A DNA stretch of 64,000 nt, taken from Nitrospirota bacterium. GTDB taxonomy: Bacteria; Nitrospirota; Thermodesulfovibrionia; UBA6902. The stretch lies in assembly GCA_016214845.1 (NCBI GenBank), contig JACRMS010000008.1, positions 1-64,000 of the forward strand, read 5' to 3'. The notes under the pieces were generated by a model. The model was not told the DNA's origin. It saw nothing but the letters and a program-made list of their open reading frames with translations, and searched no databases. Positions 41,346 to 51,881 of this stretch are shown here, piece by piece. Positions within the stretch are counted from its first letter, which is position 1, and every line of letters begins with the position of its first letter. Made by a program: the position numbers and the translations under genes.

Positions 41346-42902
41346 TTATAAAAATCTCTTTACTACCTCTTTAATAAAGAGAATACCGATAACTGAAAGA
41401 TACGCAACAGACACTGCGTAAACTTTTCGATCTATTATCTTCTCTTTATTTATTTCCTCGTCAGTAATAATCCTGGGGATTACAGCAAGCACCGGCGCTT
41501 TTAATAATGTTTTCAATTCATCAACAGTCTTTATTGAATGATCGATATTATCAAGCAACAAAACAACGCCAAAGCCGCTGGCAATTCCTGCAACAATTCC
41601 AAAGAGTATCATCAACACCCTGTTAGGGCTTTCGGGCTTTGTTGGAAGGATGGCCGGGTCGACTATCCGAAAATTTTCTGTCTTGTCCTGAATCTCCATC
41701 TGCTTTGAGACTTCACTCTGACCAAGCTTTAAAACAAGTTCCTCATCAATCTTTTTATATGAATCTCTCTCTCTTTCAAAATCAGCAAGGTTTTTCTTTT
41801 CAACTGGAATATTTCTAAGATATTCCTTTTTTGATTCTATAATCGCATTTACATTTCTCTCTTTTGCTGAAAGAGCTGCGAGTTCAACAGTTATATTCCC
41901 AAGTTCTTCTTTCAGCTTCTGATGGAGAGGGTTCAGAGTTGTCATCTCTGTTGAGCCACCCTGCACGCCTTCTGTATCCGAATTTGAGGATTTATTTTGT
42001 AATTGCCTGTTTAATGTTTCAATCTCTGCCTTGACCTTAATGACTTCCGGATAATTTTCCGTATATTTAACGAGCAATTCATTTAATTTATTTTGAAGCA
42101 TAAGCAGTCTATCATTTACAGAATCTCCCTTAAGCCTTCCCATCATTGCTACCGTATATGGCTTCTCCTCCTTGAGTTGCTTTTCGATTAAACTTTTTTT
42201 CGCTTCCGATTCAGCCTTTTGGGTTTTGATCGACTCAAGGTTTTCCTGCGCACTCTTAATAGCCCCAACAATTGAAGCTTCATCCACCGCTACGAAAATA
42301 TCCTTGCTCCTCCTAAAGTTCATAATTTTTTCTTCTATGGCATCCAATTTGTCCTTGAAATATTTTCTCTGATCCCCTATGAACCTGTTGGCTTCGTAAG
42401 ACTCATCCCGTTTTGCTGACGTATTCTCCTCAACAAACCGTCTCACAAGTGTATTGACATAGTCTCTTGCGAGCTTTGGGTTTTTATTTCTATAGGTGAC
42501 AGAAAACCAGTCTGTTCCTTTACCCCCTTTGTTGACCATTTTAATTACTGTCTTTTCCTGAAGGTCTTTAACGAGTTTTTCCAACTCTGCAGGATTTTCT
42601 TTATTAACATTAAACTCAAGTTCATCAATGACCTTCATGAGAAGATTTCTACTCGTCATGGTATATGACATGACTCTGATCCTGTCCTCAATATCAGGGG
42701 TAACTGTTATGTTCTTTACGAATTTGTCAATAATATTTCGCTCTATAAAGACCGTACTTTGCGCCTCGTATACGTCTGGCAGCAAATAGCTTCCCCAAAC
42801 TATGATTGAGAGACAAAGCATTGAGACAGCTATAAACAGATACCTTCGACTAACAACCAGTCGCCAGTATTGCTTAACATCAAATTGCACTGTGTCATTC
42901 AT
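41346..42902 (-). CDS. Chain-length determinant (Wzz/GumC-like, TIGR03007-like)
   Basis: A 518-residue polysaccharide co-polymerase. The N-terminal Wzz region has the first transmembrane segment at about residues 19-38 and VYEAQSTVFIER. A long coiled-coil periplasmic domain follows (about 170-400, rich in Lys, Glu and Gln). A proline-rich segment PAILPTKPESPNRVLMILFGIVAG leads into the second membrane segment near 425-450, and a short cytoplasmic tail ends with another hydrophobic stretch. It should set the length of the EPS and couple the polymerase to export. The kinase is separate here, as in Gram-positive-type arrangements. Confidence 0.93.
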   Translation of the reverse strand: MNDTVQFDVKQYWRLVVSRRYLFIAVSMLCLSIIVWGSYLLPDVYEAQSTVFIERNIIDKFVKNITVTPDIEDRIRVMSYTMTSRNLLMKVIDELEFNVNKENPAELEKLVKDLQEKTVIKMVNKGGKGTDWFSVTYRNKNPKLARDYVNTLVRRFVEENTSAKRDESYEANRFIGDQRKYFKDKLDAIEEKIMNFRRSKDIFVAVDEASIVGAIKSAQENLESIKTQKAESEAKKSLIEKQLKEEKPYTVAMMGRLKGDSVNDRLLMLQNKLNELLVKYTENYPEVIKVKAEIETLNRQLQNKSSNSDTEGVQGGSTEMTTLNPLHQKLKEELGNITVELAALSAKERNVNAIIESKKEYLRNIPVEKKNLADFERERDSYKKIDEELVLKLGQSEVSKQMEIQDKTENFRIVDPAILPTKPESPNRVLMILFGIVAGIASGFGVVLLLDNIDHSIKTVDELKTLLKAPVLAVIPRIITDEEINKEKIIDRKVYAVSVAYLSVIGILFIKEVVKRFL

Positions 42903-42943: not shown

Positions 42944-43744
42944 CTAAAACAAACTTTCTTTAACTACAATAAAATCGCCTGGCAAAAGCGCCGCATTCTG
43001 GCTTAAATCACCCTTCATTAAATCTTTTGCCTTAATAGATATTTTCCCCCGCTCACCATTCTCTTTCTTTCTTAGAATTTCCACGTCATTTTCTTTTGCA
43101 AATTCCGTGAATCCGCCAACAGACAGGACAGCATCCAGGATTGTCAGTCCTTCCCTGTAGGGTATTGCACCAGGTTTTACAACAGCGCCAACGATATTGA
43201 TCCGATTTTCGAAATTGTCAGGAATAAATACCATGTCATCCGGCTCAAGAACTATATCCTGGCTAAAATCGCCTTTTTCAAACAAATGGTAAAACCCTGT
43301 CTTTATCTTTTTGCTATCCCTGACCAGATATGCGTTTACCAAATCTGCATTGTCTAAGGAACCCAATTGCGAGAGAAACTCAAGAAGGGTTGTTTCCCGG
43401 GTAAGTGTTCTTACCCCTGAAGGAACGCCTTTTCCAAAGACAAATATCCGATAATTGGTCATGGCAGTAACAATTACAGTGACAATGGGGGTCTTTATCA
43501 CTTTGGTCATTTCTTTTTCAAGAACTCCGGTCAGTTCTTTCGGTGTCATGCCTGCGGCCTTTATTTCGCCTAATGCAGGAAGCGCTATTTTCCCATCAGG
43601 TCTTACAGTGGTAACAAGACTAAGCTCCGGGCTTCCCCATACGGATATTTGAAGAGAATCTCCACCTCCGATAACATAGTCCTTCGCAAAAACATTAAAT
43701 GATATCAGTAAAAAAAATACTGTAGCAAATATAGTCTTCTTCAC
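42944..43744 (-). CDS. Polysaccharide export protein (Wza-like, TIGR03027-like)
   Basis: A 266-residue secreted protein with a signal peptide ending NVFAKD and no lipobox cysteine. The poly-export domain has YVIGGGDSLQISVWGSPELSLVTTVRPDGKIALPALGEIKAAGMTPKELT. Two SLBB-like segments follow (about 105-165 and 180-235). It would form the periplasmic/outer-membrane channel for the EPS. The start is GTG at 43744 behind an excellent AGGAGGG. It lies 118 bases after the TPR lipoprotein gene with no terminator in between. Confidence 0.92.
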   Translation of the reverse strand: MKKTIFATVFFLLISFNVFAKDYVIGGGDSLQISVWGSPELSLVTTVRPDGKIALPALGEIKAAGMTPKELTGVLEKEMTKVIKTPIVTVIVTAMTNYRIFVFGKGVPSGVRTLTRETTLLEFLSQLGSLDNADLVNAYLVRDSKKIKTGFYHLFEKGDFSQDIVLEPDDMVFIPDNFENRINIVGAVVKPGAIPYREGLTILDAVLSVGGFTEFAKENDVEILRKKENGERGKISIKAKDLMKGDLSQNAALLPGDFIVVKESLF

Positions 43745-43862: not shown

Positions 43863-46625
43863 TCACTTCTTCATCGCCTCTAAGGTTTTTTGGGCGTTCT
43901 CCTGTTCACTAAAAGGAGTCTGACGCCCAAGACGAATGGAGTTTTTAAGTTGCTCCTCGGCTTTGTCCTCCATCCCCTTTTTCAAATACGATAGGGCCAA
44001 ATGATACCGTACAGTGGGATCTGCGGGAAGATAATATGTGGCTTCTATGAAATACTTTATAGCATCATCATAGTTGCCCTTATTATAAAGCGTCCACCCA
44101 AGTGTATCTGTTATGCTTCCATCCTTGGGCATTACTTCTTTTGCCTTTTTAGCAAATTCTACAGCCTTTTCGACCGGGCCGTAGCCTTCCACATACAGGT
44201 ATGCAAGATTGTTTAAAGCAGGCGCATTGTTCGGGGAAAGCTCCAATAGTTTTTTGTATTTTTCAACTGCGCTGTTTTTATTCCCCATCTGTTCAAGGAC
44301 GGTTGCCTGAAGAAAATATACAGGCAGGTATTGAGGGGTTGCTTTTTCGATTTCATTAAAAGTCTCAAGCGCCTTTGGAAGATCATTATTAGACATGTAT
44401 GTTCTGCCCAAGGCCACTTTTATTTCTGTGCTGTCTGGCTTTATCTCCTGGGCCTTTTTAATAGAACTTATAGCGTTCTTGAACTGACGGCTTTCTGTAT
44501 ACACCAGGGCCAGTATCATATAACTTAATTCTTTCTTCGGATTTAAGGCGATAATTTCTCTCGCAGTCTTTTCTGCAGACGCAAAATCTTTTTTCCTTAA
44601 GTAGAGATTGGTTATTCCTCCCATAATATCTACCCTGTTAGGCTCTTTTGCCAGCAGCCCCTTCAGCTCTGCAATCGCTTTATCATAATCGCCCATTGCA
44701 GCATAGACGCTTGCGGTCCTTCCCGTGCCGAGAGCGGGAGCGCTGTCCTTTAAATCTTTGTATAAAGAAAGCGCTTCATTATAATTCTTCTCTGACATAT
44801 ATAAACGTCCCATCATCTCACGGGCCTGGACATTTTTGGGATCAATGCTTCTTGCCTCTTCAAGCTCTTTGGCTGCCTGTTTGGTGTCTCTTTTCCTCTG
44901 ATAATATCCTGCAAGCGACAGATAAGCTTCTACTTTGCCGCTCTCTTTTGCCCTGCTGTAATAAGAAAGCGCCTCTTTGTCATTCTTGTCCGACTCCATA
45001 ATCTTTGCCAGCATCAGCAGCGCAGTGACGTTGTTTTTGTCTATGTCGAGCACCTTATTGTATTTTTTTATTGCGCTTTTCTTTTCACCATTGTTCATAT
45101 CCACAAGCGCGGAATTAAAATAAGGCAGGAGGAACTTCGGGTTAGAAGATATAGCCTTTTCAAAATTCTGCTTTGCATTTCCATCATCTTTTGCCTCGTG
45201 ATATGCAATGCCGATAATGTTGTAAAGTATCGCGTCATTTGTATTCCCCTTTAAACCTTCCTTGAGCGTATTAACAGCATCCTGATACTTCTTGTTCTTG
45301 ACATAATATTTGGCAAGCATGATCCTGCTGTTCAACAGGTCAGGCGCAATCCTAACTGCACTGATAAACTCCTTCTCGGCCTTTTGCGCATCACCAGACA
45401 ATAAATTAAATGCGCCTTTCTTTATATAAGCATCAACAAGCCCCGGATTAAGCGCAATTGCCCTGTCAAATTCCTCTGTCGCTAAGTCCGCTTTATCCAG
45501 GGCCGCATAAGCGCTTCCGAGGATATTATGTGCAAAAGCGTTTTTCTCATCCATCTCCAAGACCTTCTTCGTCTCTCTTTCCGCATCCTCTGCCCTGCCT
45601 CTCTTCAGGTGAGTTACCGCAAGCATCAAACGGGGCTGAATCATGGTCTTTCTCATATCAATTACCTTTTGGAATTCGCTTGTCGCTTGTTCCAAATTCC
45701 CTTTTTCAGCATAAGAAAGACCCATATAGTAATATGCCCCGGGAATTGGGGCCTTCTTTACGGCTTGCTGCAGTGAAACCAATGCGTCGTCTATATTACG
45801 CTCGTTATAAAATATGAGCCCTTTTAAATAAGAGGTCTCAGGGCTTTCTTTAGTTAATTTTTCCATCTGCCCGGCTAACTCTTTAGCTTTTTCAATCTTA
45901 TTGATCTGCAGGTAGGTTAATCCAAGCTCCAGTTTTGCATTAACATCCGCAGGATACATACCGACTAATTTCTGATATGTGTCTATCACATCATCAGTCT
46001 TGCCCTGTTTCTGCTTTATCCTTGCAAGGCTATAGAGCGCTCTTTTATTCTTGCTGTCGGAATTTAGGGCTTCTTTTAATAGAGATTCCGCGTGGTCAAT
46101 CTTGTTGTCCGCAAAATAAACGTCCGCAAGAACCACCTTTGACGACACACTGTCAGGGGAAATCTTGAGCGCTTTAAATAGAAGCTCCTCAGCTTTTGCA
46201 TAGTCTTTCTTTGCGGAATAAACGGCAGCAGCGACTTCATATGCCTCAGGGTTGTCCGAGACCTTGCTCAAGTACAGGTTTATCTCCTTAACAGCGTCCT
46301 CTGTCTTCGAGGAGTATGTGTAGACTCTTGCGAGGGCTATATGGGCTGTGTCGAAAGACGGGTTTAATCTCAGCACCTTCATCAGCTCACGCTCCGCTGC
46401 TTCATATTTACCCTGCCCTATATAAGCCAGTCCAAGTTGATACCTCGCCTCAAAATAATTCTGGTCCTTTTCAATTGCCTTTTTTAAGACTACTATGGCC
46501 CCGTTTGAGTTTCCGCCTTTAAGAAGCTTGACGCCTTTTTCATAATATTGCTGCTTGCTCAAATCCTTACTGCAACCTGCAAACAACGCCGCAACCAAAA
46601 CCGTCAAAACTATTATCTTACGCAA
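43863..46625 (-). CDS. prsT: PEP-CTERM system TPR-repeat lipoprotein PrsT (TIGR02917-like)
   Basis: A 920-residue lipoprotein. The signal MRKIIVLTVLVAALFAGCSK has its lipobox Cys at residue 18. The rest is about 24 tetratricopeptide repeats, with A-x-Y-x-LG and NPx-DA patterns recurring every 34 residues. PrsT-type proteins are found in exosortase A loci and probably scaffold the polymerisation and export machinery in the periplasm, as AlgK or BcsC do. The start is TTG at 46625 with GGGGG eight bases upstream; it overlaps the end of the pseudo-receiver gene by eight bases. The two genes share the sigma-54 promoter at 47044. Confidence 0.93.
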   Translation of the reverse strand: MRKIIVLTVLVAALFAGCSKDLSKQQYYEKGVKLLKGGNSNGAIVVLKKAIEKDQNYFEARYQLGLAYIGQGKYEAAERELMKVLRLNPSFDTAHIALARVYTYSSKTEDAVKEINLYLSKVSDNPEAYEVAAAVYSAKKDYAKAEELLFKALKISPDSVSSKVVLADVYFADNKIDHAESLLKEALNSDSKNKRALYSLARIKQKQGKTDDVIDTYQKLVGMYPADVNAKLELGLTYLQINKIEKAKELAGQMEKLTKESPETSYLKGLIFYNERNIDDALVSLQQAVKKAPIPGAYYYMGLSYAEKGNLEQATSEFQKVIDMRKTMIQPRLMLAVTHLKRGRAEDAERETKKVLEMDEKNAFAHNILGSAYAALDKADLATEEFDRAIALNPGLVDAYIKKGAFNLLSGDAQKAEKEFISAVRIAPDLLNSRIMLAKYYVKNKKYQDAVNTLKEGLKGNTNDAILYNIIGIAYHEAKDDGNAKQNFEKAISSNPKFLLPYFNSALVDMNNGEKKSAIKKYNKVLDIDKNNVTALLMLAKIMESDKNDKEALSYYSRAKESGKVEAYLSLAGYYQRKRDTKQAAKELEEARSIDPKNVQAREMMGRLYMSEKNYNEALSLYKDLKDSAPALGTGRTASVYAAMGDYDKAIAELKGLLAKEPNRVDIMGGITNLYLRKKDFASAEKTAREIIALNPKKELSYMILALVYTESRQFKNAISSIKKAQEIKPDSTEIKVALGRTYMSNNDLPKALETFNEIEKATPQYLPVYFLQATVLEQMGNKNSAVEKYKKLLELSPNNAPALNNLAYLYVEGYGPVEKAVEFAKKAKEVMPKDGSITDTLGWTLYNKGNYDDAIKYFIEATYYLPADPTVRYHLALSYLKKGMEDKAEEQLKNSIRLGRQTPFSEQENAQKTLEAMKK

Positions 46626-46998
46626 TTATGTTTCCCCCTGATATGTTCAAGTAACCGTTTATAATTCCGCAAACTATATATTTGAATCTTTCAAAATCGA
46701 GCGGCTTTACCAGGCAGATTGAGTTTTTGATGCGCTTCATTACTTCCAGCAAATCGCTGTTCAACTCATCTGACAGCACAATGGTAGGGATGTCCTTAAT
46801 CAACTTAGATTTCAGAAAAGGCAGAGCATATGGATAGCTCGAAACAATTAACGAAATGCCGTTTGCAGAGACAAACTTCGCAGCTTCTTCCGAAGAGATG
46901 GCAAGTGTTGTTTGATATCCTTCATCATTCAATATGGCGGAGCATACTTTTGAGAAGCCGTTTTCATCTAAAATCAATATCTTTTTCGCGTTAGACAT
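46618..46998 (-). CDS. Receiver-like protein without a phospho-acceptor (pseudo-receiver)
   Basis: A 126-residue stand-alone receiver-fold protein. KKILILDENGF gives the acidic pair (Asp11, Glu12), TIVLSDE the Thr/Ser position and CLVKPLDFERF the conserved Lys-Pro. Where receivers carry the phosphorylated Asp (pattern DLIVSDYxMP), it reads SLIVSSYPYALPF, so the acceptor is replaced by Ser and no nearby Asp can serve. It probably signals by protein contact rather than phosphorylation. It is the first gene behind the sigma-54 promoter at 47044, with AGGA just before the ATG, and is coupled to prsT, so it may adjust assembly of the export complex or feed back on the two-component system. Confidence 0.82.
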   Translation of the reverse strand: MSNAKKILILDENGFSKVCSAILNDEGYQTTLAISSEEAAKFVSANGISLIVSSYPYALPFLKSKLIKDIPTIVLSDELNSDLLEVMKRIKNSICLVKPLDFERFKYIVCGIINGYLNISGGNIIA

Positions 46999-47043
46999 TT
47001 AATCCTGTTTTAGAGTTGAAACTTAAAAATGCATTGCTAAGAT

Positions 47044-47059
47044 TGCAATTATAGTGCCA
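47044..47059 (-). promoter_or_regulatory. Sigma-54 (RpoN) promoter for the pseudo-receiver/prsT operon
   Basis: On the minus strand TGGCACTATAATTGCA matches the -24/-12 consensus TGGCAC-N5-TTGCW exactly, with GG-N10-GC spacing. Transcription would start near 47033, about 35 bases before the ATG at 46998. The next gene upstream on the same strand encodes an NtrC-type activator, the kind sigma-54 needs. Confidence 0.88.
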
Positions 47060-47191
47060 CTGCATGCATTTCAATTTTTTTAAAATGAAACTGCGTTGTA
47101 ACTGTTTAGATTATCTTATTTTATTTTCTAAGAAATGAGCTGAATTGATCTTCTGCGTGAGGATATTTTTATGACGTGAAAGCCAGACGAT

Positions 47192-47304
47192 TGTATCCAA
47201 AAGAAACAATAATTGCCAGGTCAGCTTAAAAAGTCCTTAAAAATCATTAGGTCAAAAAATATTTCAAAACTGTATCCTTTGGATACAAAAATTGAGTGGA
47301 TACA
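47192..47304. promoter_or_regulatory. Candidate upstream activator sites (inverted repeat plus half-sites)
   Basis: A perfect inverted repeat TGTATCC-TTT-GGATACA lies at 47271-47287. Single copies lie nearby: TGTATCC at 47192-47198 and GGATACA at 47298-47304. They sit 135-270 bases upstream of the predicted start at 47033, the usual distance for sigma-54 enhancer sites. The likely binder is the NtrC-type protein encoded at 47351-48742, whose coding end borders this region. Confidence 0.65.
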
Positions 47305-47350: not shown

Positions 47351-48742
47351 TTATGAGAAGGGCTGCTCTGCCTTTGAAGATACGACCTTGCCGTCTGCCT
47401 GTTTCAGCTTGCTGTAAAGTGCCTTCCTGGTTATGCCGAGCGCCTTTGCGGCCTTTGATTTATTTCCGTTGAAGGCATTAACAGCTTTGATAACTGTCTC
47501 CATCTGAAGCTCTTTGAGAGGCTTTAATGCAGCTATATGCGCGCCGTCATGTCTTGCTTCTTTTCTGATCTCAGCCGAAATATCTCTTGTGCCTATTGTC
47601 TCTCTTTTGGTCAGCACAACAGCCCTCTCTATGGCATTTTCAAGCTCCCTCAGGTTTCCGGGCCAGCTATAATTAAGAAAGATTTTCATAACTTCAGGCG
47701 ATACGGAAGTAACATGCTTGTTCTCGCGCTGAGCGAATTTGTCTATGAAATGCGTTACGAGAAGGGGAATATCGCTTTTCCTGTCACGTAAGGGCGGCAG
47801 CTTGATCTGCACCACATTTAAACGGTAATAAAGGTCGGCCCTGAACTTTTTAAGCTTCACCTCTTTTGCCAGATCACGGTTTGTCGAGGCAACCAGGCGT
47901 ATGTCGATCTTTATCCTTTTGCTTCCGCCGATGCGCTCTATTTCCTTCTCCTGAATGGCCCGCAATATCTTCGCCTGTAACGAAAGCTCCAGTTCTCCGA
48001 TTTCGTCAAGGAACAATGTGCCGGTGCTTGCCTCTTCAAATTTCCCAACCCTCTTTGAGACGGCCCCGGTAAAGGCCCCTTTCTCATAGCCGAAAAACTC
48101 CGCCTCAAGAAGTTCACGCGGCACGGCAGCGCAGTTGACCGCTATGAAAGGCCTGTAGTGCCTGTGACTGGTGTAATGTATCGCCCTTGCAAGCAGCTCC
48201 TTTCCCGTCCCTGTCTCGCCTAATATAAGCACATTGCTTGATGAGTCTTTAATATTCTCGACCATCCTGAACACATTATCCATGCCCGGGCTTTTGCCGA
48301 TAATGCTTGAAAATCTGTACGTGGATTCAAGCTGGCTGCGGAGATTGGCGATCTCATTTTTGAGTCTTTTCTGTTCAACGGCCTTCGACAGTATTGCCTT
48401 AAGCTTGACGTAGTCAGGCGGTTTTATAAAATAGAAAAAAGCGCCCTCTGTCATCGCGGTCACAGCGGAATCAACCGACCCGAAGGCCGTTAAAAAAATC
48501 ACCGGTACATCGGGATGGTTTGCTTTTAAATGGTTAAAAAGATATAACCCGTCCTTGCCCGGCATCTTGAGGTCTGTAACGACTGCGTCAATATTTTCAA
48601 CGGAGGTGATCTCTATAGCTTTATCGACTCCGTCTGCCTGATAGACATTATATGAAGCCTCCCCGAGAATAGCGGACAGGACCCTCAGTGCGTTCGGTTC
48701 GTCGTCAACCAGGAGTATGTTTGCGTTATGTTTTTTTTCCAC
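47351..48742 (-). CDS. prsR: NtrC-type sigma-54-dependent response regulator (PrsR-like)
   Basis: A 463-residue activator with three domains. The receiver (residues 1-125) has the acidic pair in ILLVDDEP, phospho-Asp in VVTDLKMPG and Lys in YFIKPPD. The AAA+ domain (about 145-385) has Walker [10 protein letters not shown], the sigma-54 contact loop [11 protein letters not shown], Walker [11 protein letters not shown] and the arginine-finger region. The Fis-type helix-turn-helix at the C-terminus contains [24 protein letters not shown]. The start is GTG at 48742. The kinase gene lies 18 bases upstream. PrsR proteins regulate EPS and PEP-CTERM genes with RpoN in floc-forming bacteria; the symbol rests on context and resemblance. 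Confidence 0.9.
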
Positions 48743-48760: not shown

Positions 48761-49795
48761 TCACTTCTCTTTGCGCACCACAGCTTCAAGAGGATTTACC
48801 GGAAGAAATATTTTAAATATGGTCCCCTTCCCCCTGACGCTCTCCCACAGAAGCTTTCCGTTATGGGCTTTTATGATCTCACGCGAAAGGAAAATACCGA
48901 ACCCCCTCTCATTTCTTTCAGGCTTATTTGAAAGCTCTCCAAGCTTATTAAGTTTTCTTCCCGGAATACCTTTGCCCGTATCGGAAATCTCTATTACGGC
49001 ATAATCAATGTCTTTTTCCCATCCCGAAGAAGTCTTTATGTCAATTGAACCGCCTTTGGGCATCGCCTCAATAGCGTTATTTATAATATTAAACAAAGCC
49101 TGTTCTATCTGAAATGCGTCCGCGGACACAAGCGGCAGATCTGAGAGGTCGTGCGAGATTGCAATGTTCTGAATTTCAGAGCGGGGCTTGATCATAGCGA
49201 TAATAGTTTTCAGAATATCGTTGGGGTTTATCGGGGCAAATCTCAATTCGCCTCTTGCGGCGCTGAGAAAATTTGAGACAAAATTATCAAGCCGGTTGAT
49301 CTCATCGTTGATTATGGTGCTGAATTCAAGGAGGGTCTTTTCATGCCCGTATTTTTCACTCAGGTAAACAACCGCGCCCTTTATAGCATTTAACGGATTT
49401 CTTACGCCATGTGCAAGGGATGACGCCATTTTTCCTATCGCGATCATCTGCTCATCGGAATCCGACAGGTGCCTGCTCAGCGGGCATCTGCCCGAAATAT
49501 TGTCAAGCACAACTGAAACTTCTTTGACCTTCCCGTTTCCATCTTTTACAGGACATAGCCGGACATCATATGAAATATTTGAGCCTATCAAGCAGATATG
49601 CCTGCTGGCCTTTATGTGTCTTTTCCTGCCGTCGCCAAAAACAAGCTCTATCTTGTCCTGCAATCGCGGGAATACATCGTTTACTTTTTCTCCAATGATG
49701 TTTTCAGCCTGTTTGCGGCCCAGTTTTTCAATATCGGAGTTCCATGACTTTATTGTAAAAGCACTATCGACGCTGAAATTGCATTTACCTCTCAT
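48761..49795 (-). CDS. NtrB-like sensor histidine kinase with PAS domain
   Basis: A 344-residue soluble kinase. A PAS-like sensor (about 1-110) has FTIKSWNSDIEKLGRKQAENIIG. The H-box SSLAHGVRNPLNAIKGAVVYL is near residue 130. The catalytic domain has INNAIEAMPKGG (N box), EISDTGKGIPG (G1) and RGFGIFLSREII (G2). No transmembrane segment is present, so the signal is cytoplasmic. It should phosphorylate the NtrC-type regulator encoded 18 bases downstream. PrsK kinases of other exosortase A loci carry many membrane segments plus GAF; this one differs, so I do not call it PrsK. Confidence 0.88.
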   Translation of the reverse strand: MRGKCNFSVDSAFTIKSWNSDIEKLGRKQAENIIGEKVNDVFPRLQDKIELVFGDGRKRHIKASRHICLIGSNISYDVRLCPVKDGNGKVKEVSVVLDNISGRCPLSRHLSDSDEQMIAIGKMASSLAHGVRNPLNAIKGAVVYLSEKYGHEKTLLEFSTIINDEINRLDNFVSNFLSAARGELRFAPINPNDILKTIIAMIKPRSEIQNIAISHDLSDLPLVSADAFQIEQALFNIINNAIEAMPKGGSIDIKTSSGWEKDIDYAVIEISDTGKGIPGRKLNKLGELSNKPERNERGFGIFLSREIIKAHNGKLLWESVRGKGTIFKIFLPVNPLEAVVRKEK

Positions 49796-49871: not shown

Positions 49872-50636
49872 CTATATGCCTTTTTTAAACTCTTCCAGTA
49901 ACTCAGGATACTCTTCCGACATCCCCATCTCCAGCTTATTTATGTCTGCCAGATAAGGCGTCCTGATGCCGTGATAATCGACCGGGTCGCCGATTGCCTC
50001 AAACTTTAATCCGAACTTATTGAGCAGCAGCACGATTCCCTTTGTCATTATCGCGTACCAATAATTGATATGCCTTCGTTTGCTCTCCTGGTATATGGCT
50101 TTGTACAAACTGATAATAAGCTCATGCCTGACGCGTCTTTCGTTGTTTGATGAACCTGCGCGTTGGGCCGGTTGTCTTTTATGCCTGTCCTCAAATCTTC
50201 TGGAATAAGACTTATTATTGGGCGAGTATTGATAAGTCGGATATGTAAAACTGCCGATGCTCCTTCTTTCCTCATCCGGACCGTATATGAACTTGTCCTC
50301 GGCCCTTCTCCTGTAATCTCTGTGTATTACCAGCCTTGAAATTTCAGCAATCGCCTCCCTTGGAAGTTCATCTTTGTTGATGTCCAGTTCACAGTATCTT
50401 TCAATCGGGAAGCCTTCCGCTGAATCCATTATCAACCTTACCCCACCGACGATTTTTTGCGCCGGGTCTTTAGCGGCAAAATGTATGGCTTTATCATCAT
50501 AGCTGTCTGTCAAGGTCCCGCTTGAATGGTCTTCCGGTTTTTCAAAACCCCATTCCAAGCAGTATACCTTATACCTCAGCCTGTAGATATCCGCTAATTC
50601 TTTTTCCGCTGAAACAATTTTAACTGCAAATGACAT
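49872..50636 (-). CDS. PEP-CTERM/exosortase-associated acyltransferase (FeeM/LuxI-like fold, TIGR03694-like)
   Basis: A 254-residue protein related to N-acyl amino acid synthases and autoinducer synthases. IYRLRYKVYCLEWGFE (about 16-31) is the N-terminal signature of the fold. KIVGGVRLIMDSAEGFPIERYCEL and AIAEISRLVIHRDYRRR follow, then YWYAIMTKGIVLLLNKFGLKFEAIG. It contains a variable, basic, low-complexity insert (about 118-160). I start at ATG 50636 because GAGGAAA lies upstream; the frame is open five codons further from a TTG. In exosortase loci it may attach acyl groups from an ACP; the ACP and ligase at 33979-35811 are candidate suppliers. It is transcribed divergently from the PEP-CTERM gene. 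Confidence 0.87.
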   Translation of the reverse strand: MSFAVKIVSAEKELADIYRLRYKVYCLEWGFEKPEDHSSGTLTDSYDDKAIHFAAKDPAQKIVGGVRLIMDSAEGFPIERYCELDINKDELPREAIAEISRLVIHRDYRRRAEDKFIYGPDEERRSIGSFTYPTYQYSPNNKSYSRRFEDRHKRQPAQRAGSSNNERRVRHELIISLYKAIYQESKRRHINYWYAIMTKGIVLLLNKFGLKFEAIGDPVDYHGIRTPYLADINKLEMGMSEEYPELLEEFKKGI

Positions 50637-50930
50637 AAAAATTTTCCTCAAACAAGTTGGGATAAGACATCAGGCAAAATTTTAAAGCTTTCAATAAATT
50701 GTATCTTGATTTGCTTCGCCAACCCCCGGGATAATATCTTTCCAAGGATAACATATTATATGTGACAGTACAAAATTTGCACACCTTGACACAGTGCCAA
50801 CTGTATTATATTTAATACGGACTGCTTTTCTTTGCACTTTAGTACAGCTAATATGCAATAATTTTTTTACGTTGAAAATCAAATGGTTCTTGTATAAAAC
50901 TCATTACTTCGACAGTTAATTTGTTTAACA
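50637..50930. promoter_or_regulatory. AT-rich divergent regulatory region with palindromes
   Basis: No gene is seen. Two inverted repeats stand out: ACATATTATATGT (50751-50763, perfect) and GTATTA-TATT-TAATAC (50803-50818). A TGTATCT (50700-50706) resembles the TGTATCC half-site of the 47271 repeat. The region lies 110-230 bases upstream of the sigma-54 promoter at 50931, where enhancer sites are expected, and also upstream of the acyltransferase gene. Confidence 0.45.
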
Positions 50931-50946
50931 TGGCACATGAATTGCT
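50931..50946 (+). promoter_or_regulatory. Sigma-54 (RpoN) promoter for the PEP-CTERM gene
   Basis: TGGCACATGAATTGCT matches TGGCAC-N5-TTGCW exactly, with GG-N10-GC spacing. Transcription would start near 50957, leaving a leader of about 295 bases before the PEP-CTERM start at 51252. It is the second perfect sigma-54 match in the locus, facing away from the regulator genes. Confidence 0.87.
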
Positions 50947-51251
50947 TTATTGAAAAAATAAAACTTTTTGAGGGGATAATGTCGCTTGACAAATTTTTAT
51001 CCGATAGCGTTTAATAACTCAATAAAATTCGGGGGACATAATATGAAGGGCTTGCGGTTAATCCATTATCAATCTTACTAACATCTTTTAGCACAATACA
51101 GTAGCGCTGTCAGATTATTAAAGTTTTGGCAGATTCAATAAGGGGGGGCATGGAAATGAAAAACATATTTTATTAGCTCGGCATCAATCTAACACTACCA
51201 TCAATTTTTAACATTTACTATTCTATGACTCAAAGAAAGGCAGGGACAAGC
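50947..51251 (+). other. Long leader of the PEP-CTERM gene with two tiny ORFs
   Basis: The leader holds two short frames, each preceded by a G-rich ribosome binding site. ATG 51043 to stop 51081 (12 codons, MKGLRLIHYQSY) has GGGGG seven bases upstream. ATG 51150 to stop 51176 (8 codons, MEMKNIFY) lies beside a G7 run at 51142-51148; its second ATG at 51156 is spaced seven bases from that run. They may be leader peptides or remains of a duplicated gene start. I recognise no riboswitch class. Confidence 0.4.
50986..51015 (+). promoter_or_regulatory. Possible sigma-70 promoter
   Basis: TTGACA (50986-50991) and TTTAAT (51010-51015) are separated by 18 bases. The match is good, but AT-rich DNA gives such matches by chance. 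If real, it would give a second start inside the leader. Confidence 0.35.
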
Positions 51252-51881
51252 ATGAAAAAACTTTTTACTCTTTTAGCTGTAACAATATTGGTTTCCGCAT
51301 TTGCCATTCATGCAGATGCAGTTGTTGCAATCAATTTCGACGATGTTTCAAACCTTACCATGATTGATAATCAGTATTCAGCCTTTGGCGTGATATTTTC
51401 AACTTACGGAGCTGCGGGATACAGCGATGGGCACGCCTATGCAAGAAACAGCTCTTTAAGCGCATCAAACCCTAACGTTATTGGCGGGAATAGGTCCGGG
51501 TACACGTATTTAAATGACACCTATATTACAGGCCGGGCGGATTTTTCAGCCCCGGCAAACAATGTTGAAATATGGGCCAAACCTTTCAGCACCGATAACC
51601 TTCTTGCCTGGATGAAGGCTTACGATGCAAACGGCAATCTGCTTGACACCTTCAATATTAGCGGTTCGGTGCAAGGAGAAGCCTTTCTTCTAAGTATAAC
51701 GCGTCCTGACTATGATATATCAAGAGTTGAATTCAGCGGGGCAAGCAAGAGAGTCACCTTTGATAATTTCTCGGTCAACGTTGCGCCGGAGCCGGTAAGC
51801 TCCATTCTTTTTATGACCGGGGGGGCAATTTTGGGTGTCAGGCGTTATTTCAAAAAGAAGAGGTCGGGAACCAGCGCTTGA
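51252..51881 (+). CDS. PEP-CTERM sorting domain protein
   Basis: A 209-residue exported protein and the only clear exosortase substrate in the window. A Sec signal peptide covers residues 1-22 (ending IHADA). The middle is a beta-rich domain with INFDDVSN and VSVNVAP-flanking strands, resembling the jelly-roll/PEP-CTERM domain proteins. The C-terminus has the PEP motif at 179-181 (APEPVSS), a hydrophobic helix and the basic tail RRYFKKKR. I start at ATG 51252, which follows AGGGACAAG; the frame is open nine codons further. It should be processed by the exosortase at 33086. Expression is probably under sigma-54 control. It is followed by a strong terminator. Confidence 0.93.
   Translation: MKKLFTLLAVTILVSAFAIHADAVVAINFDDVSNLTMIDNQYSAFGVIFSTYGAAGYSDGHAYARNSSLSASNPNVIGGNRSGYTYLNDTYITGRADFSAPANNVEIWAKPFSTDNLLAWMKAYDANGNLLDTFNISGSVQGEAFLLSITRPDYDISRVEFSGASKRVTFDNFSVNVAPEPVSSILFMTGGAILGVRRYFKKKRSGTSA

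Follow-up and report, generated by a model that had tools for sequence, protein, structure and literature searches.

The region between the genes for an NtrC-family activator and a predicted pseudo-receiver in the 64,000-nt window (the whole stretch of Nitrospirota DNA analyzed here) appears to comprise the enhancer and the promoter of a pseudo-receiver–prsT–XrtA exopolysaccharide operon, a reading to which we assign a probability of about 0.8 on the strength of conserved sequences, gene order, and spacing. The 17-bp sites and the sigma-54 promoter in this region, together with the adjoining regulator gene, most likely form a dedicated on-switch of a surface-polysaccharide cluster. The original prediction, made from this DNA alone, that the sites, promoter, NtrC-type activator, pseudo-receiver, and prsT constitute a sigma-54 control unit is borne out by the conservation of this arrangement in relatives.

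The promoter is located on the minus strand at 47045-47059, where the element TGGCACTATAATTGC matches TGGCACtataaTTGC with 0 mismatches, GG and GC being present at the correct spacing; nearly all relatives of the sigma-54 type have a -24/-12 element at the same place. As predicted, this exact match lies ahead of the pseudo-receiver and prsT, separated by 46 bp from the pseudo-receiver gene, which starts at 46998; judging from its position, transcription would be expected to start near 47033. Farther upstream, and likewise as predicted, the perfect inverted repeat TGTATCC-N3-GGATACA (site 1, 47271-47287; TGTATCCTTTGGATACA, 0 mismatches) adjoins the activator gene (47351-48742, minus strand), which ends 63 bp away. 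Site 1 is identical or nearly identical in relatives; given its 14 fixed bases, simple arithmetic yields an expectation of about 0.0005 perfect copies per 64 kb, and a search of the 3.4-Mb assembly identified no other perfect copy. At a distance of 79 bp is a degenerate 17-bp site with two mismatches, TGTTTCTTTTGGATACA (site 2, 47192-47208, minus strand), which is kept as one unit in relatives, forming a conserved block of aligned columns. Of the two additional TGTATCC half-sites originally proposed, the one at 47192-47198 is thus part of a full second site, and the other (47298-47304, minus strand) is a half-site only, which recurs solely in the closest sibling (L011) and is probably not essential. 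A scan of this region in the relatives revealed no conserved dyad other than the 17-mers. The suggestion that the operator might be new is upheld insofar as no published description of TGTWTCC-N3-GGAWACA was found in the part of the literature on TGTATCC and GGATACA that was surveyed, but many EBP motifs have the same TGT-N11-ACA frame (PMC4641369).

The activator combines a receiver, a sigma-54 AAA+ domain, and a Fis-type HTH (PF00072, PF00158, PF02954), with both GAFTGA and the acceptor Asp present, and accordingly belongs to the NtrC-family EBPs. The adjacent gene, also adjacent in relatives, encodes a histidine kinase (48761-49795, minus strand; PF00512, PF02518) that contains no hydrophobic, membrane-spanning segment (maximum 19-residue mean 1.06) and is the probable partner of the activator; upstream of it, and part of the gene order kept in relatives, is a PEP-CTERM/exosortase acyltransferase gene (49872-50651, minus strand; TIGR03694, 184 bits, cut-off 112). 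On the other side, the first gene behind the promoter (46618-46998, minus strand) encodes a protein whose AlphaFold model (pLDDT 85.2) matches receiver folds in the PDB and whose aligned relatives lack Asp where receiver strand 3 ends (SSYPY or similar), so that the product is classified as a pseudo-receiver, with a predicted receiver fold and the acceptor Asp missing. This gene overlaps by 8 bp with prsT, which encodes the TPR lipoprotein of the XrtA/PEP-CTERM system (43863-46625, minus strand; TIGR02917, 597.5 bits, cut-off 312.2), and the next genes of the probable operon, both on the minus strand and above the respective cut-offs, encode an XrtA export protein (42944-43744; TIGR03027) and a chain-length determinant (41346-42902; TIGR03007). 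In the mechanism we propose, the kinase would phosphorylate the receiver of the activator, and, by analogy with how NtrC-family activators are known to work, activator dimers would bind both 17-bp sites, which precede the expected start by approximately 165 and 245 bp, and would then assemble and open the sigma-54 polymerase at the -24/-12 element.

The pseudo-receiver was chosen as the search anchor for relatives because it is short and specific. Each of 14 other loci, the nearest belonging to the same genus and the most distant to the same class, has up to three 17-mers, and at least one, together with a -24/-12 element upstream of the pseudo-receiver gene; at most of these loci, the two sites are separated by 69-81 bp. 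In a second collection, consisting of contigs labelled Geobacteraceae, Deltaproteobacteria, Nitrospirae, or unnamed bacterium, two or three copies are typically accompanied by a promoter near -30 to -45. Of the 396 Nitrospirota genomes covered by a phylum-wide search, 34 contained the pseudo-receiver gene, and the search provided a test set of 24 loci picked without regard to the motif, which is nearly but not wholly independent (L184 resembles the earlier L085, and L190 resembles L090). Sites with at most one mismatch to TGTWTCC-N3-GGAWACA were found at 15 of these 24 loci (shuffle mean 0.02), and sites with at most two mismatches at 21 (shuffle mean 0.13). A perfect site is present at all five loci whose labels name another phylum or a distant group. 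Overall, 73 sites, ending in GATACA or GAAACA and located 71-251 nt from the -24 element, were identified upstream of the pseudo-receiver at 45 distinct loci, 36 of which have a good promoter by our own simple weighting score, with the threshold chosen by eye. When 230 genomes were searched with a tandem pair of sites as the sole DNA pattern, six matched, five of these at this locus, and the two new ones correspond to L086 and L087. At two loci (L193 and L198), the pseudo-receiver gene is present and the sites are absent, which counts against our preferred explanation.

Relatives share the gene order acyltransferase–kinase–activator–sites–pseudo-receiver–prsT, and the unit extending from the kinase and activator through the sites and the -24/-12 element to the pseudo-receiver and prsT is found throughout Nitrospirota as well as in MAGs with the labels Geobacteraceae and Deltaproteobacteria; close relatives among the compared loci are not independent, and several are MAGs of uncertain binning. 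Lack of conservation of the repeat had been named beforehand as the refuting outcome; when this was tested, the repeat turned out to be clearly conserved. Given that the same arrangement persists in very distant bacteria, the unit is real and old. A contig in an Acidobacteria-labelled genome has the same sites, at the same positions, as a Thermodesulfovibrionia MAG contig (L080/L081), a likeness that is probably due to a binning error.

The extent of control is a separate matter. The original prediction envisaged a master switch of a 43-kb array, and the 36 ORFs between 3789 and 46998 are indeed all on the minus strand, but position links the promoter to no more than the first transcription unit. 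The array is interrupted by gaps of 61-345 bp, and the prediction is not supported for the entire 43 kb; in one 339-bp gap that was scanned, no minus-strand sigma-70-like promoter was detected. The position of the promoter gives good support for control of the pseudo-receiver and prsT, and control of these two together with the following XrtA genes is likely.

The proposed connection to sigma-54 control of PEP-CTERM genes is not supported: the operator was found upstream of none of the 13 PEP-CTERM genes examined in this genome, which are therefore rejected as its targets, and the activator falls below the PrsR cut-off (see below). Three PEP-CTERM genes in this genome, including 51225-51881 in the window, have a good -24/-12 element without the operator. 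The element facing the latter gene is the second perfect one (50931-50945, plus strand), 294 bp before the first ATG; it has no 17-mer operator and is kept in the closest sibling (L052, 11142). Very short open frames, such as MEMKNIFY followed by a stop, occur in the long leader of this gene (51010-51224, plus strand) and are also present in the sibling; a regulatory role of the leader is possible.

A genome-wide operator regulon was rejected as well, the relaxed pattern yielding three forward matches in this genome against two control matches; of the forward matches, one is a site already described for this locus, and its partner is another. The sites thus seem to serve mainly this one locus. 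Recurrence of the motif at other EPS promoters, which was sought as support, is not seen elsewhere in this genome but is seen in one relative, G389, where three operator copies and two divergent -24/-12 elements are located between an XrtA export gene (pepcterm_export) and a TIGR03016-like gene (L205:1382-1517), likely a second target. In another genome (G040, L142-L149), TGTTTCCCCTGGAAACA is identical at three intergenic places, mostly without a sigma-54 element. Given that no pseudo-receiver was found in G040 and no strong -24/-12 element faces a gene at these places, this sequence was set aside as probably unrelated; it is perhaps a site of another regulator or a repeat.

The Nitrospirota family f15 is represented by six loci (L195-L197, L199-L201), at which the region between the genes has shrunk to 91-140 bp. 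By our promoter score, none of the six has a good -24/-12 element, but they retain a site of the type TGTTTCCATTGTAAACA, and this persistence of the operator speaks for our preferred explanation. Three of the six activators have a changed GAFTGA loop (GAFAGS, DAFLEA, KD--TGA), whereas the loop is intact in the other three, and the latter members, which keep GAFTGA with no detectable -24/-12 element, count against our preferred explanation. The pattern fits gradual uncoupling from sigma-54 with the operator kept, in a small number of loci where a weak promoter may be missed. If so, f15 would be a natural case of an activator leaving sigma-54 while retaining its DNA site.

Several other readings of the region were weighed. 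A chance match of both consensus patterns can practically be dismissed: the window contains no more -24/-12 matches with at most one mismatch than shuffles do (4 observed vs. 3.35 expected), but both position and sequence are conserved over 45 loci, and this comparison already refutes chance. An RNA hairpin, such as an intrinsic terminator, at the end of the kinase-activator transcript would suit a palindrome located 63 bp past the activator stop codon, from which a short hairpin could form ahead of a T-rich sequence. The fold of the region, however, is no better than those of shuffles (z -0.55), the two or three copies per locus are widely spaced, and the halves do not covary: complementarity at position 4 is observed in 28 cases, with 29.0 expected under independence (73 sites, 45 loci), the invariance of the outer bases being due in part to site selection, in which up to two mismatches were allowed. 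Because the half-sites vary independently, the palindrome is better explained as a protein operator, and the hairpin reading, which is very improbable, was rejected for the absence of covariation. Somewhat less improbable, but still unlikely, is that the 17-mers bind another activator or repressor encoded elsewhere and the adjacent activator uses other DNA. In its favor, the TGT-N11-ACA frame is generic and occurs in several EBP motifs (PMC4641369); in addition, this genome has no second target, so that the pairing of activator and operator rests on adjacency, which counts against our preferred explanation. Against this possibility, the sites and the activator co-occur across distant bacteria, with the activator gene adjoining in nearly all loci long enough to judge and its recognition region, GNKSKAA..LGI(T/S)RK, almost invariant; a paralogous pseudo-receiver without an activator (L079) has neither a good site nor a promoter; 17-bp dyads suit Fis-type dimers; and there is no further conserved dyad in the region.

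The unit might also be the published PrsK-PrsR system with a diverged motif, which shares with it the setting (PEP-CTERM, XrtA, prsT), the protein architecture, and the combination of a 17-bp site with a -24/-12 element. We consider this quite improbable. The activator scores 398.4 bits on TIGR02915 (PrsR), and five distant relatives of it score 379-410, all below the cut-off of 502.6. This genome has 21 full or near-full matches, each of which likewise stays below the cut-off, whereas a positive control, the protein encoded beside the exosortase gene on the Nitratidesulfovibrio plasmid, reaches 585.4. The recognition helix also differs, SRPTFYDLL in the plasmid EBP vs. TRKALYSKL in the window activator, the two proteins being 38% identical. 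The kinase, without the membrane segments of PrsK, matches TIGR02916 in its catalytic part only (55.6 bits), far from the more than 300 bits expected of that transmembrane kinase, and the sites are not at PEP-CTERM genes in this genome. By the curated cut-off, the activator is not PrsR. A broader proposal, which we regard as an even bet, is that a non-PrsR EBP clade with the operator TGTWTCC-N3-GGAWACA and the pseudo-receiver as first target runs XrtA loci, with one Nitrospirota family uncoupling from sigma-54 (promoter lost and GAFTGA altered in some members) while holding the operator. The control unit favored here would provide a candidate operator for an uncharacterised activator that, in bacteria most of which are uncultured, is encoded next to XrtA exopolysaccharide loci, and would extend sigma-54 control of XrtA/PEP-CTERM exopolysaccharide loci beyond PrsR.

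Among known systems, the closest comparison is PrsK-PrsR of Proteobacteria, for which Haft et al. 2006 (PMC1569441) described two motifs ahead of PEP-CTERM genes; motif 1 is 17 nt long, ends in TTTACA, and is about 63 nt from motif 2. As in that system, a response-regulator EBP with a Fis-type HTH is encoded alongside a kinase, with prsT nearby, and a 17-nt site is combined with a sigma-54 element. A Nitratidesulfovibrio plasmid stood in, in part, for a proteobacterial set in the comparison. Unlike motif 1 in its published description, the sites here precede the pseudo-receiver and prsT rather than PEP-CTERM genes, conform to TGTWTCC-N3-GGAWACA at variable distances from the -24 element, and no 17-nt motif ending in TTTACA precedes the target; furthermore, the activator is below the PrsR cut-off, and the kinase is not membrane-bound. 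DVUA0057 of Desulfovibrio vulgaris, assigned by in vitro binding and prediction to plasmid exopolysaccharide and biofilm operons (PMC4641369), is similarly a sigma-54 EBP tied to exopolysaccharide loci, but the Nitratidesulfovibrio plasmid EBP, probably its counterpart, is a true PrsR by score. Similarly, in Aquincola tertiaricarbonis, the PEP-CTERM gene pepA lies beside prsT and has a mapped RpoN-dependent start behind TGGCAC, but the prsT transcript there seemed unaffected by disruption of rpoN1 (PMC9850573), a result that counts against our preferred explanation; here, the -24/-12 element faces the pseudo-receiver and prsT.
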